From the IMG/VR virus record IMGVR_UViG_3300031749_000022, positions 1 to 32,137 of that record: a DNA stretch of 32,137 nt; one strand, written 5' to 3'. A model generated the notes under the pieces. That model saw only the letters and a program-made list of their open reading frames with translations, ran no database searches and was not told where the DNA came from. This stretch comes from a virus. The position numbers were made by a program, and so were the translations under genes. Shown one piece after another: positions 451 to 19,651 of this stretch. Each line of letters starts with the position of its first letter. Within the stretch, counting starts at the first letter, position 1.

Positions 451-714
451 TTATTCTCCTTGCATTGATGATGGGTTGGTGAGATTTGAGATGCATCCCG
501 AAGCGTGCAGCTCGTTGAGGATTTTTGTGGGGTTGGCGAATTGTCCGCAGCGATATTCTTTCGCAGACAGAATTGCCATCATTCCATTTCGGCAGCGATA
601 TACTACGTCGCGCCTTTTTGGCCTCATGACATTGAAAACCCTGTAGCGGCTCGTCTGTCCCGTGATGCTGTCAGAACAGGTTTCGCGCTCCAGAAATACT
701 CGAAACAGCTTCAT
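451..714 (-). CDS. Hypothetical protein, 87 aa
   Basis: This basic, cysteine-containing 87-residue protein is not one I recognise. AAGGGA lies 6 bases before its ATG, the start overlaps the upstream stop in an ATGA junction, and its TAA sits 2 bases before the next start codon, so it is tightly packed in the leftward operon and probably translationally coupled. It has four cysteines (residues 13, 41, 60 and 74), an Arg-rich middle, and no membrane segment. Its coding status rests on packing and ribosome-binding site rather than on homology. Confidence 0.65.
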   Translation of the reverse strand: MKLFRVFLERETCSDSITGQTSRYRVFNVMRPKRRDVVYRCRNGMMAILSAKEYRCGQFANPTKILNELHASGCISNLTNPSSMQGE

Positions 715-926
715 GCAAGTCCCTTTTCAAGGTCATTCTGAATATCGATCAGATGAGCCATTGGAGCCTTGTCAGTGCCATCGCAGATTCTGATTTGAGC
801 CTCGAGGAGGATCTCGATCTGAGCTTCTGCGATGTCTCGATCATGACCTTTCACGAGACTGGAGAGCAGCCAAAGCAGGCTGGCAATAATGATCAAAAGC
901 AAAAAGACAAGGGTGGGAATATGCAT
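711..926 (-). CDS. Small membrane protein, 71 aa
   Basis: I chose the ATG at 926 because AAAGAGG lies 5 bases upstream; a TTG further up at 941 keeps the frame open but has no ribosome-binding site. Residues 5-24 (LVFLLLIIIASLLWLLSSLV) form one hydrophobic membrane helix, followed by a charged cytosolic tail rich in Asp and Glu that could be amphipathic (about 30-71). This looks like a holin-sized or Rz/spanin-sized protein, but the position in an early operon argues against lysis, so no function is assigned. It begins directly after a hairpin terminator, so it may be expressed at a lower level than the genes upstream or need readthrough. The 3' end overlaps the next start (ATGA). Confidence 0.7.
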   Translation of the reverse strand: MHIPTLVFLLLIIIASLLWLLSSLVKGHDRDIAEAQIEILLEAQIRICDGTDKAPMAHLIDIQNDLEKGLA

Positions 927-1197: not shown

Positions 1198-2793
1198 CTA
1201 GGCTGCCAGAGCTTCCTTTTTCTGCTTTGCGGGAAGTTTTGAAGACTTTTCTTTCGCTTTGAGCTGCGCCTTATGTTCCCGGCGCATCTGATCGTGATCG
1301 ATACCAAACCTTGTCGAAAAATCGGCCAGGCGCTCTGTCTTGGGGTCCCTCCAGGTGGCAACATGCGTTTCGCCGATGAGGCAGCAGTCGATCAACAGGG
1401 CGCAAATATCGGCATCGCTCAGCCTGTCGATGTGATTGCGTTCGAATTCATAAACGAGGTCATGGGTGATCTTCTCGTCAATATAAAGAGCAACAAGCCT
1501 CTTGCGCGTGTCAAAGTCGATGCCGCTGAACATCGTCTTGGCCACCATTCTGAGCTCGGCTGGATTGAGCGTCGGGAAGAGCGGCAGCGATCGCTTGGAC
1601 AGATCTTTCTGGAAGCTGAATCGTATTTCAGCCAGCCAGTTCGCTCTGAAAATGTTTTCCTCGCGATTTTCCTTTTCCTTCTTTTTCTGGTCATCGTTGC
1701 CGTTGCTTTGCTGATAAGGCGAACTGACCTTCTTGGCTTTCAGAATCTCGCTTGCCGCCGAGGTTTCAACGCATTCGACGAGAACGCCCTTATTCACGTC
1801 CTCGATCAGCGTCACGGGCGGCATGTCGCCTTTCAACAGTTCCCGGTAAGTTTTGCCGCCCTCATGGTAGTAGTTCCGGTCATTCAGCGGGGTCCATCTG
1901 CTGGAATGTGTGGGACCGTGCGGAAACAGTTTTTTCGCTGCTTCTCCGTGAATAAGCGAGAAGCCTTTTGCTTCCGCTTCGGCAACGCGCTTATCGATAT
2001 TTGCCGCTTTTTTCCGAGCAAAGCATTCCGGATCTGTGCAGACGTCTGCAAATTTAAGATCAGTGAAAATCTCTGGCTGATTGGCGGCAAGCTTTGGGCA
2101 TTCCCGGCAGGATCCGACACCTTTAAGCAGGTCGGTATCTGATGTTTTGAATGGCGCCTGGTCGATACGCAGCATGAAATTGTCTTGTATGTATTTTGCT
2201 GCGGTACGAAAGGACATGATCTCACCCCGCCAATCCGGCTCGGTAATGGATTTCAATGCCTGGATCTGTAGGGAAGCGAGAGGAATGCGAGCGATCAGCA
2301 ATGCAGTCGATTCGCTGAGCTTGCCATCATAGAAAGCCTCACGCGCTTTTTTGCAGAGTGCTGTGAGCTTCAGCTTGGCGTATATGTAGGCCTTGCTCTT
2401 CTTGACCTTCTCGGCCAGCAGTTCTGCCGTGTAGCCATGCTCTTTCATCAGCTTCTCGTATCCTTCGGCTTCCTCCAGGGGATGGAGATCATCGCGCTGC
2501 AGGTTTTCAATCACCTGAACCTCGAGGACCTGTAGATCGCTCATCTCCCGGATGAAAGCCGGGATCTCCGTGAGCTCGGCCATGATGGATGCGCGGTAAC
2601 GACGCTCACCTGCGATCAGTTCGAAGTCTTCGCTATCCTTTTTATGGCGAATCAGGATCGGCTGCAGAACGCCATGGAGACGCACGCTTTCGGACAGCTC
2701 CTTGAGCTTTCCTTCGTTGAAAAACTTCCTGGGATTGGTGGGAGATGGGGAAATTCTGCCGATTTCCACCACGTGGATTTGCTGGTTAATCAT
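1198..2793 (-). CDS. ParB/RepB/Spo0J-family protein with cysteine cluster, 531 aa
   Basis: I start it at the ATG at 2793, with GGAG 7 bases upstream; the open frame continues 33 codons further but without a start signal. Residues 1-112 are a ParB N-terminal domain: the nucleotide-binding motif GERRYRAS is at 62-69 and the conserved ENLQRDDLHPLEEAEGY at 96-112. A helix-turn-helix follows (about 117-146). A four-cysteine arrangement C229-C232-C252-C257 could bind zinc. The region around 365-380 is a charged linker, and the last 150 residues are helical with a Lys-rich tail. ParB domains of this type bind CTP and load onto DNA in characterised homologues. No ParA is present in the window, and the protein sits in a repressor-controlled early operon, so a role in phage regulation, replication or DNA handling is as likely as partition. 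Confidence 0.9.
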   Translation of the reverse strand: MINQQIHVVEIGRISPSPTNPRKFFNEGKLKELSESVRLHGVLQPILIRHKKDSEDFELIAGERRYRASIMAELTEIPAFIREMSDLQVLEVQVIENLQRDDLHPLEEAEGYEKLMKEHGYTAELLAEKVKKSKAYIYAKLKLTALCKKAREAFYDGKLSESTALLIARIPLASLQIQALKSITEPDWRGEIMSFRTAAKYIQDNFMLRIDQAPFKTSDTDLLKGVGSCRECPKLAANQPEIFTDLKFADVCTDPECFARKKAANIDKRVAEAEAKGFSLIHGEAAKKLFPHGPTHSSRWTPLNDRNYYHEGGKTYRELLKGDMPPVTLIEDVNKGVLVECVETSAASEILKAKKVSSPYQQSNGNDDQKKKEKENREENIFRANWLAEIRFSFQKDLSKRSLPLFPTLNPAELRMVAKTMFSGIDFDTRKRLVALYIDEKITHDLVYEFERNHIDRLSDADICALLIDCCLIGETHVATWRDPKTERLADFSTRFGIDHDQMRREHKAQLKAKEKSSKLPAKQKKEALAA

Positions 2794-2977
2794 GATTTTC
2801 TCCAGTATTTTGAGGAAGGCTTTTCCGGGCAGAGACGGAGATCTTGATCCATCCCTTCGGTACAATCGGCGAAAGCAAGGTGCGGCGCCCATCGGTCACC
2901 AGATGAAGGTGCGCGGCAGAGGCAAGGATGGAGGCCTCGAGCACGGTCTGTTCGTCAGGAATGGTCACCGTTGCCAT
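2786..2977 (-). CDS. Hypothetical protein, 63 aa
   Basis: The ATG at 2977 follows the stop of the preceding gene by 2 bases, and the TAA at 2786-2788 lies inside the start of the ParB-like gene (8-base overlap), so the three genes should be translationally coupled. The 63-residue product contains a hydrophobic, Ala/Leu/His-rich segment (about 13-26) and a basic C-terminal half. I do not recognise a family. No strong ribosome-binding site is visible, which fits coupling to the upstream gene. Confidence 0.6.
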   Translation of the reverse strand: MATVTIPDEQTVLEASILASAAHLHLVTDGRRTLLSPIVPKGWIKISVSARKSLPQNTGENHD

Positions 2978-3804: not shown

Positions 3805-4012
3805 TGGTTTCCCTTTCGTAGATAAGGCATTCGGATTTGGCGGCGCTGGAGATCGCCAGCATTTTTGTGGCGAGGATCTTTTTGCGGGCAAGCAGATCAT
3901 CGATTCGCGCTTGGGAATTCCGGATATTCATCCGCTCTCTCTGGATTGCGCGGTCTATGCGACATTTTTCATCATCGAAAATCAGGAGCAAAATTGAAGC
4001 CTCGGAAATCAT
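3788..4012 (-). CDS. Small helical protein, 74 aa
   Basis: The ATG at 4012 overlaps the stop of the preceding gene (ATGA), and GATGAGG lies just upstream; a GTG at 4054 in the same frame would overlap the neighbour by a further 42 bases and has no better signal. The product begins with a short hydrophobic stretch (MISEASILLLIF), and then becomes highly charged and helical with Arg/Glu/Ile spacing typical of a coiled coil (about 14-60). I recognise no family. It overlaps the start of the winged-helix-like gene by 17 bases. Confidence 0.65.
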   Translation of the reverse strand: MISEASILLLIFDDEKCRIDRAIQRERMNIRNSQARIDDLLARKKILATKMLAISSAAKSECLIYERETNAFTC

Positions 4013-8413: not shown

Positions 8414-8692
8414 ATGGGTGAAAATTTGGATTTGTCTGACATCGATGCAATTCCCGAAGACTTTCAGCGTCTCCGGAATCTCTGGGCGGAAGTAATCCGC
8501 GTAGCGATCGCAGATGCTCAGATGTCCGGTCGAAACTTCAGCGGATATCGAAAAGACGCCATCAACTGGATTTTCGACGATGGGCGCGCCAAGGAAGTAA
8601 ATTCGTTCGTGTCGATATGCGGATTGCTGGATGTTTCTCCTGAGCAGATCCGTGCCAGGCTGAGAAAAATGCTCGGTATGCGAATCTCATGA
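8414..8692 (+). CDS. Phage protein upstream of the primase, 92 aa
   Basis: The ATG at 8414 follows the previous stop directly, and no strong ribosome-binding site is seen, so coupling is likely. The core 'LRNLWAEVIRVAIADA', 'DAINWIFDD', 'FVSICGLLDVSPEQIRARL' is the pattern of a small protein common in temperate phages, where an aromatic WIF.D motif is followed by a helix-turn-helix-like 'LLDVSPEQIRARL'. Its role is unknown, but its place next to replication genes is usual. Its end overlaps the primase start by 4 bases (ATGA). Confidence 0.7.
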   Translation: MGENLDLSDIDAIPEDFQRLRNLWAEVIRVAIADAQMSGRNFSGYRKDAINWIFDDGRAKEVNSFVSICGLLDVSPEQIRARLRKMLGMRIS

Positions 8693-11043
8693 AGAAAATC
8701 GATTTCGCTTCGATAAACCAGGCTGCGCTCAATAATTTCGAAGGGCTGCTGAGAGAGTGGCTGCCGAGCGGGAAAAAGGAGGGCGGGGAATACAAATCCC
8801 TGAATCCAGTCCGCGCCGATTCGAAAATCGGATCCTTCTCGATCTCGATCCGGAAAGGCGTCTGGCAAGACTTTGCGACAGGAGACAAGGGGTCCGACCC
8901 GACCAGTCTCTATGCATATCTTTTTTGTGGCGGAGACCAGGGGAAGGCAGCAAAGGAATTGGCCGAGCGCCTCAACATATCATCTACCCTTTCCCACACG
9001 TCCATCCCCTCCGCTCCTCCGCAGAATAGCAGCAAGAAGCCTCAGTGGCACCCCATTCTCCCTGTGGCCGCAGATGCCGGAGATCCTCCTGCAGCTCATA
9101 TCAAGCGAGGAAAACCTGAAAGGACCTGGTGCTATCGCGGTGCGAATGGCGAGATCCTGGGGTACGTGTACCGGTTCAAGACTTCGGATGGGGGAAAAGA
9201 GGTTTTGCCGCTCAGCTGGTGCCGAAATGAAGAAGGGCGGTCGGAATGGCGCTGGATGTCATTTCCCGAGCCCAGGCCGCTTTATCGTCTGGATGCGCTG
9301 GCTGCTCATCCTAAAGCATCTGTTCTGCTCGTCGAGGGCGAGAAATGCGCAGATGCCGCTGCGATGGAAATAGAGTGCGACGAGCTCGTAATCGTGTCAT
9401 GGCCGGGTGGCGGAAAAGCCGACGGTAAGGTCGACTGGTTTCCTCTGTATGGCCGCAAAGTCATTCTATGGCCGGATTGCGATTCCCAGCGTGAGAAGAT
9501 GTCGAAGGAAGAGAAGGAAGCGGGCGTCGATCCTGCATCCAAGCCTTACCTTCCGAAGGATAGGCAGCCCGGCTTCTCGACCATGCTCCGGATAGGCGAG
9601 CGACTGTCGGAGAACGGCTGCAAGATCTGGGACGTGCAGATCGATGAACCGGGCTTAAAGCCTGACGGATGGGATGTGGCTGATGCAATCGCTGATGGCC
9701 TTCGCGCTGATGATCTTCGTGAGTACATTCGCGCGAAGAGTGTTTTGCGAGCGCCAGCTCTTTCAGGGGAAGAAAGCATTTCTACCGCACCCGAAGCTGG
9801 CGCGATCATCCCTGAATGGCGCCGTGGGTTGATGTGGAAATCGGAAAACGTTCTTCAGGATTGCCGTGAAAATGTTTTTCTTATCCTTTCTCGGCATCCT
9901 GCCTGGAAAGGGAAAATCGGATACAACGAGTTTTCCGGGCGTATCGAAAAACTTGAAGCTCTGCCGATAGCATCAGACCTTGGCGAGTGGTCGCCGCAAG
10001 ACGATCTGGACGTCGGTTTATGGCTCGCTCAAAACTATCCGAAGCTGCTCATCAAGGGGGAGGGAACGCTCGCCGCAGGCATCTCCATGGTAGCGGCCAA
10101 GAATAAGTTCCATCCTGTTCGAGAATGGTTGCGTAGTCTGCCATGGGATGGCAAGTCAAGACTCCGGTATCTGTTTTCAGACTGTTTCGGAACGGCAGAA
10201 TCCGAATATTTTGCGCTGTGCGGACAATATTTCCTGATAGGCATGGTGGCGCGGATTTTCAAACCAGGGTGCGCAATGCAGTATATGCCGATCCTCGAGG
10301 GTTCTCAAGGCAAAGGAAAATCGACTGCATTGAGAATACTCGGAGGCGAATGGTATGCCGAAACACCGTTCAAGATCGGAGACAAGGATGCGTACATGCA
10401 GATCGCCGGCGTCTGGCTCTACGAAATTCCGGAACTCGATTCGTTCAATCGCGCCGAGTCCACTGCGGTAAAGGCATTTGTGACAATCCAGACTGACAGA
10501 TATCGCGAGCCTTACGCCAGGCGCACTATTGATCGGCCCAGGCAGTGTGTTTTCGCCGGAAACACCAATCATGGAGAGTATTTCAAAGATCCAACGGGGA
10601 ACAGACGATTCTGGCCGATCCGCTGCGGGCAGATCGATCTCGATCGGTTGCGCGAATGGCGTGAGCAGCTTTTTGCTGAAGCCTGCGCGTTGTTCGATCA
10701 GGGCGAAAAATGGTACCCCGGTCGAGACGAAGAGGAAAAATACTTCAAGCCACAGCAGGAAGAGCGCGAGATCGTCGATCCCTGGCTTTATACCCTCTAC
10801 GATTGGCTCGATGATCCTGAAAACCGGGCAATCACCGAGATCACTTCTTCCGATTTACTGAAACGCTGCTTTCATGTCTCACATGACAAGGTCGACGGAA
10901 ACCGTGGCATGGCAACGCGGATCGGGAATCTGATGCATCGGCTTGGATGGGCAAAAAAACGGCGCTCAACAGGCTATCGAGAGTGGATTTATTGTCGGCC
11001 AGCGCCAGCTGTATCAGGGGGGGCGATCAATGTTCCATTTTAA
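8689..11043 (+). CDS. Primase-helicase with Toprim and VapE/P4-type ATPase domains, 784 aa
   Basis: The protein combines an N-terminal region related to DNA primases (about 40-100, 'GVWQDFATGDKGSDPTSL'), a Toprim domain with the VEGEK acidic motif (215-219) and WPDCD (261-265), and a C-terminal helicase of the virulence-associated E (VapE) family. The helicase motifs are Walker A EGSQGKGKST (537-546), a Walker B-like LYEIPEL (577-583), sensor AGNTN (623-627), and NRRFWPI (638-644). Such proteins unwind the origin and prime phage replication, as alpha does for satellite P4. The adjacent 3' region (11101-11388) contains a cluster of repeats that is a plausible target. The start overlaps the previous stop (ATGA). 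Confidence 0.93.
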   Translation: MKKIDFASINQAALNNFEGLLREWLPSGKKEGGEYKSLNPVRADSKIGSFSISIRKGVWQDFATGDKGSDPTSLYAYLFCGGDQGKAAKELAERLNISSTLSHTSIPSAPPQNSSKKPQWHPILPVAADAGDPPAAHIKRGKPERTWCYRGANGEILGYVYRFKTSDGGKEVLPLSWCRNEEGRSEWRWMSFPEPRPLYRLDALAAHPKASVLLVEGEKCADAAAMEIECDELVIVSWPGGGKADGKVDWFPLYGRKVILWPDCDSQREKMSKEEKEAGVDPASKPYLPKDRQPGFSTMLRIGERLSENGCKIWDVQIDEPGLKPDGWDVADAIADGLRADDLREYIRAKSVLRAPALSGEESISTAPEAGAIIPEWRRGLMWKSENVLQDCRENVFLILSRHPAWKGKIGYNEFSGRIEKLEALPIASDLGEWSPQDDLDVGLWLAQNYPKLLIKGEGTLAAGISMVAAKNKFHPVREWLRSLPWDGKSRLRYLFSDCFGTAESEYFALCGQYFLIGMVARIFKPGCAMQYMPILEGSQGKGKSTALRILGGEWYAETPFKIGDKDAYMQIAGVWLYEIPELDSFNRAESTAVKAFVTIQTDRYREPYARRTIDRPRQCVFAGNTNHGEYFKDPTGNRRFWPIRCGQIDLDRLREWREQLFAEACALFDQGEKWYPGRDEEEKYFKPQQEEREIVDPWLYTLYDWLDDPENRAITEITSSDLLKRCFHVSHDKVDGNRGMATRIGNLMHRLGWAKKRRSTGYREWIYCRPAPAVSGGAINVPF

Positions 11044-11100: not shown

Positions 11101-11131
11101 GTCCAACCTTCGTTTTCATACAAGGTTGGAC
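11101..11131 (+). other. 10-bp hairpin after the primase gene
   Basis: GTCCAACCTT (11101-11110) and AAGGTTGGAC (11122-11131) form a perfect 10-bp stem with an 11-base loop, 57 bases after the primase stop. No T-tract follows, so it is not a classical terminator. It is the left-hand local folding alternative to the large palindrome. Confidence 0.65.
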
Positions 11132-11202
11132 GGCAAGGTTGGACGGCTGAGACCCTCATGGTTAAAGGGTTCGTCCAACCGTCCAACCTCGTCCAACCTT
11201 GC

Positions 11203-11245
11203 CGCGTGCACACACATGCGCATGCGCGTGCGTATACGCGCGCGC
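11203..11245. other. 43-bp perfect alternating pyrimidine-purine tract (potential Z-DNA)
   Basis: From C11203 to C11245 every pyrimidine is followed by a purine and the reverse without exception. Most steps are CG or CA/TG, with one TATA in the middle, and it ends in a CGCGCGCGC run. Such tracts can flip to left-handed DNA under negative supercoiling. It lies in the left half of the loop of the palindrome, close to its centre. A 6-bp hairpin (11257-11270) and an AT-rich stretch (11272-11288) follow. Confidence 0.85.
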
Positions 11246-11390
11246 TGTACTCAATTCAGGGATTTCCCTGTCTATAAATTTTCAATATCCCTTAGACGAG
11301 GTTGGACGGTTGGACGGATTGAGAGTTTATGCGGCTCTCAGCCGTCTAACCTTGACGTCCAACCTTGCAAACTGTTTGGAGGTTGGACGG

Positions 11391-11591
11391 ATGGCAAATC
11401 TTGATATTGAACAGATGCGGAAGGATTTCCAGGCAGTCGTGTCCTGGAGGAAGGAAAACGATGGGTGGACTGATAGTGATTGCGAAGAGCTGGGGGAAAA
11501 CATCAAGTCGGCAATCGAGCGCGGGGATTGGGAAATCGCCAATTCATATGCAAATTGGTTGAGAACAGAGGCGGCTGAATATGGCAAATAG
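11391..11591 (+). CDS. Small acidic phage protein, 66 aa
   Basis: I start this at the ATG at 11391 because GGAGG (11378-11382) is 8 bases upstream; the longer open frame back to 11199 reads through the repeat region and is not protein-like. The product is acidic, helical and Trp-rich ('FQAVVSWRKEND', 'CEELGENIKSAIERGDWEIANSYANWLR'). I recognise no family. The ribosome-binding site and start codon directly abut the last GGTTGGAC iteron, so folding or protein binding at the palindrome could affect its expression. It overlaps the next gene by 11 bases. Confidence 0.7.
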   Translation: MANLDIEQMRKDFQAVVSWRKENDGWTDSDCEELGENIKSAIERGDWEIANSYANWLRTEAAEYGK

Positions 11592-18961: not shown

Positions 18962-19651
18962 ATGACTCTTACAATCAATACCCTGGGAGACAATCCCCAG
19001 CAGCCCGGGATTCAGGCGGAAACGTACGTTCCGGATCAGCTGATTGCTGGCAATCTCAAACTTGTCAGCGACACGATCACGCTCGGTTCCGGAACACTTC
19101 AGCGCGGTACTGTGCTCGGCCAGCAAACCATCGGTGCGGCGACCTCGGTTGCGGCCAAGCCGGCCGGAGGCGCAAATACGGGCAATGGCACGATTTCCGC
19201 AGTGACGATTGCCGCGAATGCGCAAATCGGCAATTACGTGCTGACCGCGCTGTCTGCCACCGATTTTGAGGTGGTTGGACCCGACGGCAGTCGTCTGGCC
19301 GAAGCTACCGCAGGTACGGCTTACGTTGATCAAATCGGATTCACGATTACGGCAGGCGGCACGGCATTTTCTGCCGGCGACGGTTTTACCGTCACGGTCG
19401 CAGCGGGATCCGGCAACTATATCGAAAGCGTCAAGTCCGCCACCGATGGCAGCCAGTATCCCACCGCCATTCTGGCCGATTATGCGGATGCCTCGGGTGG
19501 CGCCGTTACGACTGGTGCGTATGTCATGGGCGAATTCAATGAGAATGCGCTGATATACGATGCCTCCTGGTCGATTACAACATTGAAGCCTGCACTCAGG
19601 CCTGTCGGGATATTCCTGAAGAACTTCGTTTCTGCAGCCGATCCCACCTGA
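18962..19651 (+). CDS. Head decoration protein (lambda gpD family) with insertion, 229 aa
   Basis: I use the ATG at 18962: AGGAG (18951-18955) is 6 bases upstream, whereas it directly touches the ATG at 18956. The protein begins with a gpD-like region ('GDNPQQPGIQAETYVPDQLIAGNLKLVSDTITLGSGTLQRGTVLGQ' style, 10-55). It ends with 'YPTAILADYADASGG' and 'MGEFNENALIYDAS' (about 163-200), both family hallmarks. Between them is an extra beta-rich segment of about 90 residues (Gly/Ala/Thr-rich). gpD trimers stabilise the expanded capsid. It is twice the length of lambda gpD (110) because of the insertion. Confidence 0.88.
   Translation: MTLTINTLGDNPQQPGIQAETYVPDQLIAGNLKLVSDTITLGSGTLQRGTVLGQQTIGAATSVAAKPAGGANTGNGTISAVTIAANAQIGNYVLTALSATDFEVVGPDGSRLAEATAGTAYVDQIGFTITAGGTAFSAGDGFTVTVAAGSGNYIESVKSATDGSQYPTAILADYADASGGAVTTGAYVMGEFNENALIYDASWSITTLKPALRPVGIFLKNFVSAADPT

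Follow-up and report, generated by a model that had tools for sequence, protein, structure and literature searches.

A mirrored iteron array 3' of a phage VapE-type primase-helicase gene: a proposed bidirectional replication origin

Replication origins of the PICI/SaPI type lie immediately 3' of the primase-helicase gene, with an AT-rich region between sets of iterons (PMC7581432, PMC6092414). The SaPI Rep protein reads its iteron origin, which is located just 3' of its own gene, with its C-terminal domain (PMC7581432), and the organisation of PICI origins was stated to occur in no other known bacterial replicon (PMC6092414). We analysed a viral DNA of 32,137 nucleotides (IMG/VR record IMGVR_UViG_3300031749_000022), the whole of which is called the window in the following. 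It encodes terminase, portal, head, tape-measure and baseplate proteins and thus belongs to a phage and not to a PICI. The phage record is incomplete; it includes head and tail genes, and no integrase or tail fibre was found among the ORFs scanned. Directly 3' of the primase-helicase gene, which ends at 11043, an array of short repeats begins at 11101. With a probability of roughly 85%, this element is the bidirectional replication origin of the phage, used by the primase-helicase encoded just upstream. Our best reading places it with the origins of the PICI/SaPI/P4 kind, as a new form with mirrored halves on which two initiator hexamers plausibly sit. No description of this architecture, including GTCCAACC, was found in the literature searched (open-access papers only).

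Geometry of the array and its core

An earlier note on this DNA, made from the letters alone, had described ten exact octamers and one variant around a shared centre near 11244. Our recount confirmed this, with ten exact copies of GGTTGGAC inside 11101-11388 (Table 1). The complete window contains 12 exact copies compared to 0.72 expected, a number that was reached in 0/100 shuffles. Outside the array there are two lone copies, at 19273 (+) and 28015 (-), where the note had counted one. Ten exact GGTTGGAC, one GGTTAGAC and one degenerate CCTTAGAC form six mirrored pairs of opposite-facing iterons, and the midpoint of every pair is 11244.0 or 11244.5. Counted outward from the centre, the iterons of the left half are spaced 10/8/36/13/23 and those of the right half 10/8/36/13/24. 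The inverted arms that had been placed on one centre were recovered as an outer pair (11121-11159/11329-11367, 39 nt, 90%) and an inner pair (11172-11196/11292-11316, 25 nt, 96%), both centred at 11244. This position is also the best dyad of the region (z=6.1; 200 shuffles gave at most 4.9, and the highest value among 202 other windows of the phage was 5.0). The iterons thus occur in both orientations, with the halves inverted rather than direct, and they form the single iteron cluster of the window, which represents an incomplete record. A DnaA box was sought in the element and none was found.

Table 1. Coordinates of the array, its parts and the neighbouring genes in the window
Feature	Position	Strand	Remarks
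Mirrored iteron array, proposed replication origin	11101..11388		dyad at 11244; geometry, and layout kept in relatives
Left half-site	11101..11198		six iterons
Right half-site	11290..11388		mirror of the left half; six sites including CCTTAGAC and GGTTAGAC
Exact GGTTGGAC copies, left half	11101(-), 11124(+), 11137(+), 11173(-), 11181(-), 11191(-)		
Exact GGTTGGAC copies, right half	11300(+), 11308(+), 11357(-), 11381(+)		
Variant iteron GGTTAGAC	11344	-	
Degenerate iteron CCTTAGAC	11290-11297	+	mirrors 11191-11198
Left-half spacer box GCTGAGACCCTCAT	11146..11159	+	second-best model match in window
Right-half spacer box GCTGAGAGCCGCAT	11329..11342	-	best model match in window
Alternating purine-pyrimidine tract, Z-DNA-type sequence	11203..11250		67% GC
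AT-rich tract, proposed melting site	11251..11297		34% GC (window 54%)
VapE-type primase-helicase, proposed initiator	8689..11043	+	784 aa; PF05272, E=1.4e-75
Proposed iteron reader, C-terminal domain	residues ~695-771		iteron covariation, peak at 721-771
Initiator kinds, named by iteron			GGTTGGAC initiator; GGTATGGA initiator
Small ORF	11391..11591	+	66 aa; phrog_29193; starts just after last iteron
ParB-like protein	1198-2892	-	564 aa

The two iteron sets flank the AT-rich tract 11251-11297, and the same arrangement is found in 33 loci with both half-sites that are described below. The cores of these loci span 57-123 bp and are asymmetric: the side of the primase is GC-rich and alternating, and the far side is AT-rich, with a GC content by tenths of the core that rises from 0.52 to 0.75 and then falls to 0.35. 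In 33/33 loci, the alternation of the core exceeds the 99.9th percentile of base-shuffled cores. The alternating tract may adopt the Z-DNA form.

The neighbouring primase-helicase named in the earlier note is indeed a VapE-domain protein. Its sequence matches the PriRep1 structure 7pds (E=6e-47), and a fold comparison of the model for residues 440-784 likewise gave PriRep1 with dsDNA (7pds; E=1e-22). For the C-terminal part, a moderate model (mean pLDDT 74) predicts a winged-helix-like domain, and the isolated C-terminal model gave weak winged-helix-type fold matches only. As for the ParB-like gene of the window, phages Aval and Mica likewise have genes of this kind close to the primase.

Conservation of the layout and covariation with the primase

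A DNA BLAST search of the element against phages and plasmids yielded no meaningful match, due to the fact that only the short sites are conserved, and a primase search of genome contigs returned no relatives. In the viral data, the array was found directly downstream of the primase in 5/5 relatives (57-61% identity). Scanning viral contigs for the motif yielded 52 loci, and most clusters of at least four sites adjoined the 3' end of a VapE helicase gene. So that the motif would not bias the sample, 160 loci were collected with the primase profile as the only criterion; together with the window and some additional relatives, this set gives 63 non-redundant loci, nearly all of them obtained through the primase alone. 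An alternating tract, called at a score of at least 15, was present in 49 of the 63. It was combined with iterons 3' of the primase in 41 of the 63, and 38 of the 63 additionally had the inner minus/plus orientation. A tract score of at least 20 was reached by 69% of the primase-profile set, compared to 0.3% of background windows. For the Haddon-like A2 set, tract enrichment in the first 500 bp seemed absent because the arrays are located ~400-700 bp downstream of the primase.

The sites themselves differ by lineage (GGTTGGAC, GGTTAGAC, GGTAGGAC, GTGGGAC, GGTATGGAA, GGTTAGGAA and GGTGTGGAA). In the cultured phage Haddon, GTGGGAC-type sites surround an alternating tract, and the cultured phage PS3 follows the same plan with GGTCACCC-type sites. 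Across lineages, opposed sites are mostly spaced by 36-37 bp (with the iteron reading frame normalised) and inner tandem iterons are 8-10 bp apart. In 49 loci, 180 mirrored pairs were observed, while 115.7 were expected with gaps and orientations shuffled; mirror pairing was individually significant (p<=0.05) in 22/49. Among the 33 loci with both half-sites, 40/66 halves contain exactly six sites (mean 5.88), six is the commonest count per half, and 14/33 loci have a 6+6 layout. For this count, sites with two mismatches were accepted only beside an existing site, and the numbers are descriptive, as related loci are not independent. The order of the outer sites varies (-++---, --+---, ---+--) and the count stays near six. 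DnaA boxes were found in 2/33 loci; in L186 alone, the DnaA-box-like TTATCCACA flanks the mirrored array at both outer edges.

Arms, octamers, spacing and the place beside the primase are thus all kept in relatives, and dozens of diverse phages have the mirror plan in common, including those in which the sequence of the sites has changed. The architecture, which had been called unusual, is so in comparison with textbook direct-repeat origins, but within this phage group it is the rule.

The iteron sequence was compared with the domains of the primase in a distance-based covariation test covering 41 loci. Iteron distance correlated with the distance of the C-terminal domain (0.65) and not with that of the primase N-terminal domain (-0.04), and the helicase added nothing once the C-terminal domain was given (-0.07). 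The reverse partial Mantel test of C-terminal domain versus iteron yielded r=0.47 (p=0.001), and in a sliding window the covariation was highest at residues 721-771. Natural domain swaps agree with this. L202 is 57% identical in the N-terminal region and 21% in the C-terminal domain and has a different iteron; L237-L239 have 17-18% identity in the N-terminal region and 45-50% in the C-terminal domain and carry the same iteron. The iteron sequence thus tracks the C-terminal domain, which supports this domain as the probable reader of the iterons. Iteron switching along with the C-terminal domain represents a natural experiment on the evolution of initiator specificity.

The spacer between the opposed iterons contains a box (consensus GCTGAAACCCGCAT, then about TACTGG), which is read on the top strand in the left half-site and on the bottom strand in the right one. 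When a box model made without the window was run over its 32 kb on both strands, the two boxes of the window ranked first and second (Table 1). They do not have the TACTGG end of the consensus. The exact box was sought in two host genomes carrying the array and was not found there. A box variant (GCTGAAAGCCGCGCCATTACTGGC, with small changes) is present in the origin of the E. coli PICI EcCICFT073 (L352 32183-32209), for which the function of the rep-ori region was shown by a plasmid assay (PMC6092414). Variants also occur in the lambdoid replication gene O, with the annotated rep_origin of Sf6 among these cases; upstream of repA of a P1-like phage, between GATC-containing repeats and a repeat array; and beside rep of the 1.8-kb plasmid p47S. 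In G4, the best box-model match (3890-3909, score 12.7, next 8.2) lies within the complementary-strand origin region, and GAAAGCCGCCGTCCCTACTGC at 3979-3999 overlaps the annotated primer and origin; this likeness is short, weak and partly post hoc, and the alpha3 box score, unlike that of G4, is at background. A box common to unrelated initiators points to a shared host or priming step, and the GCTGAAAGCCGCGCCATTACTGG-like box could serve generally for priming or for binding a host factor. Among the many box-like matches in plasmids, one sits between a resolvase and a toxin gene of an IncQ1 resistance plasmid, so that counts of such matches are no evidence of origin location.

We also recorded boxes like GCTGAAAGCCGCGCCATTACTGG in or beside origins with unrelated initiators at L353 901-925, L354 901-926 and L355 1501-1527, with further ones at L352 32183-32209 (the EcCICFT073 box), L366 899-926, and L364 3890-3909 and 3979-3999. 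Aeromonas phage Avpx2 (L358) has three spacer-box copies at 1503, 1593 and 1758, which are intergenic and near a replicative helicase gene.

The origin reading and other explanations

The origin reading is based on the position 3' of the primase, the conserved layout, the count of about six sites per half, the covariation with the C-terminal domain, the core, the presence of the box in other origins, the precedent of SaPI Rep and the match of the helicase fold to PriRep1. Origin function, which the earlier note had proposed, gains support from conservation, from this covariation and from a box that also occurs in a PICI origin of demonstrated function. On the other side, the GC skew shows no origin signal, and the missing DnaA box, the moderate C-terminal model, the boxes of the window without the TACTGG end, the incomplete record and the differences from EcCICFT073 and P4 also count against it. 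In the model that we infer for replication, protein binding, hexamer number, melting and priming by the element, the winged-helix-like C-terminal domains of the initiator would bind the iterons, and the roughly six sites per half, in fixed mirrored geometry, would place one hexamer on each half, the two being oppositely oriented. Two facing hexamers had been suggested before; the mirrored halves with about six sites fit this idea, but do not thereby prove it. Assembly of the hexamers would strain the ~90-bp core so that the AT-rich tract melts, and the alternating tract may store or release supercoiling by a B-Z switch or serve as a flexible hinge. Helicases leaving outward would expose the left box on the top strand and the right box on the bottom strand. 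If the boxes are priming signals, the primers made on the two boxes of the window would run outward from the centre and begin one leading strand each, as required of a bidirectional origin.

The inverted-repeat structure itself might instead be selected, extruded as a cruciform in DNA or formed as a hairpin in RNA. The arms are complementary across 25-39 nt, 5-bp stems are possible in some left boxes, and left and right spacers of the same locus are more alike (18.0) than spacers of different loci (14.4). However, compensatory pairing within the spacers is not significant (no pair above z=2; hairpin pairing p=0.08 left, p=0.52 right) while a fixed sequence box is conserved, and the cruciform extrusion considered in the earlier note is thus unsupported. 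With Rfam matches that are all sub-threshold and an outer-site order that varies around a nearly constant count, we regard a selected structure as most improbable. Alternatively, the sites could be an operator array that regulates the small gene at 11391 or autoregulates the replication operon, without being an origin. Initiators often autoregulate, the last iteron (11381) comes after the GGAGG of the small gene, and homologues of this gene keep their place at loci with other iterons. Still, no promoter above chance was detected, the AT-rich and alternating core and the mirror symmetry would be unnecessary for an operator, and the box is common to known origins, so that an operator without origin function seems very unlikely to us.

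A centromere-like partition site is scarcely credible. The window does encode a ParB-like protein that could use it, and centromeres can be short-repeat arrays, but the array is located at the primase, ~8 kb from the ParB-like gene, and its sequence follows the primase C-terminal domain. A mobile palindrome, which had been named as another alternative, is likewise unsupported. An octamer scan of genomes listed 80 loci, three of which (L117, L124 and L146) have a VapE relative; these three are the ones with interspersed two-way clusters of eight or nine sites, and most other loci are one-way tandem repeats. Matches of an exact 18-mer scan in Bacteroidota, Gemmatimonadota and others were rejected as unrelated tandem GGTTGGAC, mostly one-way and without a VapE gene. 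At L069, L099, L142 and similar loci, in Bacteroidota and other genomes, tandem GGTTGGAC-type repeats run in one direction, and a VapE gene was not found next to them.

Given a bidirectional origin, a further and rather doubtful step is to see in these elements a distinct double-hexamer origin class in bacterial viruses, with six sites per half, divergent priming boxes, a Z-tract torsional switch and a box that is general across initiators; this last part covers VapE primases, lambda-type O, P1-like RepA, rolling-circle plasmids and G4. For practical purposes, the grammar of orientation, spacing, site count, box and core can locate the origins of phages with VapE/P4-type primases from sequence. 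Among the phage records examined, only Sf6, with another initiator, carries an origin annotation of the region. With a Z-type tract preserved in the cores of dozens of diverse origins, a possible role of Z-DNA in initiation would become directly testable.

Comparison with known systems

A classical iteron plasmid origin has direct iterons and DnaA boxes; the element has two-way iterons and no DnaA box. The origins of SV40 and papillomavirus combine an SF3 helicase initiator (large T or E1) with inverted short sites on which two hexamers assemble. The element shares the SF3 helicase and the inverted short sites with them, and its two-hexamer state is a proposal; this suggests a parallel in bacterial viruses with a single-gene, clonable initiator. 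Large T and E1 bind with their N-terminal domain (PMC7581432). The complementary-strand origin of G4 has a short sequence likeness to the spacer box, and priming by the phage boxes is putative.

The closest systems are those of PICI/SaPI (SaPIbov1, SaPI1, EcCICFT073), in which, as in the element, iterons flank an AT-rich region 3' of the primase-helicase gene, and the iterons are short, contain GG and occur in both orientations. Together with the position and the flanked AT-rich tract, the element has a SaPI-related VapE/SF3-type helicase. The carriers found here include full phages with structural genes, whereas PICI are satellites; if the phage elements are origins, the remark that the PICI organisation is unique (PMC6092414) would need revision. 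EcCICFT073 shares the spacer box, but it has one box only, lacks an alternating tract (score 4) and is not strictly mirrored. In P4, crr similarly lies just past the alpha 3' end and has two-way 8-bp iterons, the annotated ori has six type I iterons, and opposed sites recur at a fixed 43-bp spacing. An identity of pattern with P4 crr was withdrawn, since the match depends on the iteron strand that is compared. P4 crr consists of two direct 120-bp repeats with a separate ori elsewhere, while the element is one inverted cluster in an incomplete record, and P4 has neither the alternating tract nor the mirror layout. At the level of sequence, the element thus differs from EcCICFT073 and P4 by its strict mirror layout, its alternating tract and its paired boxes.
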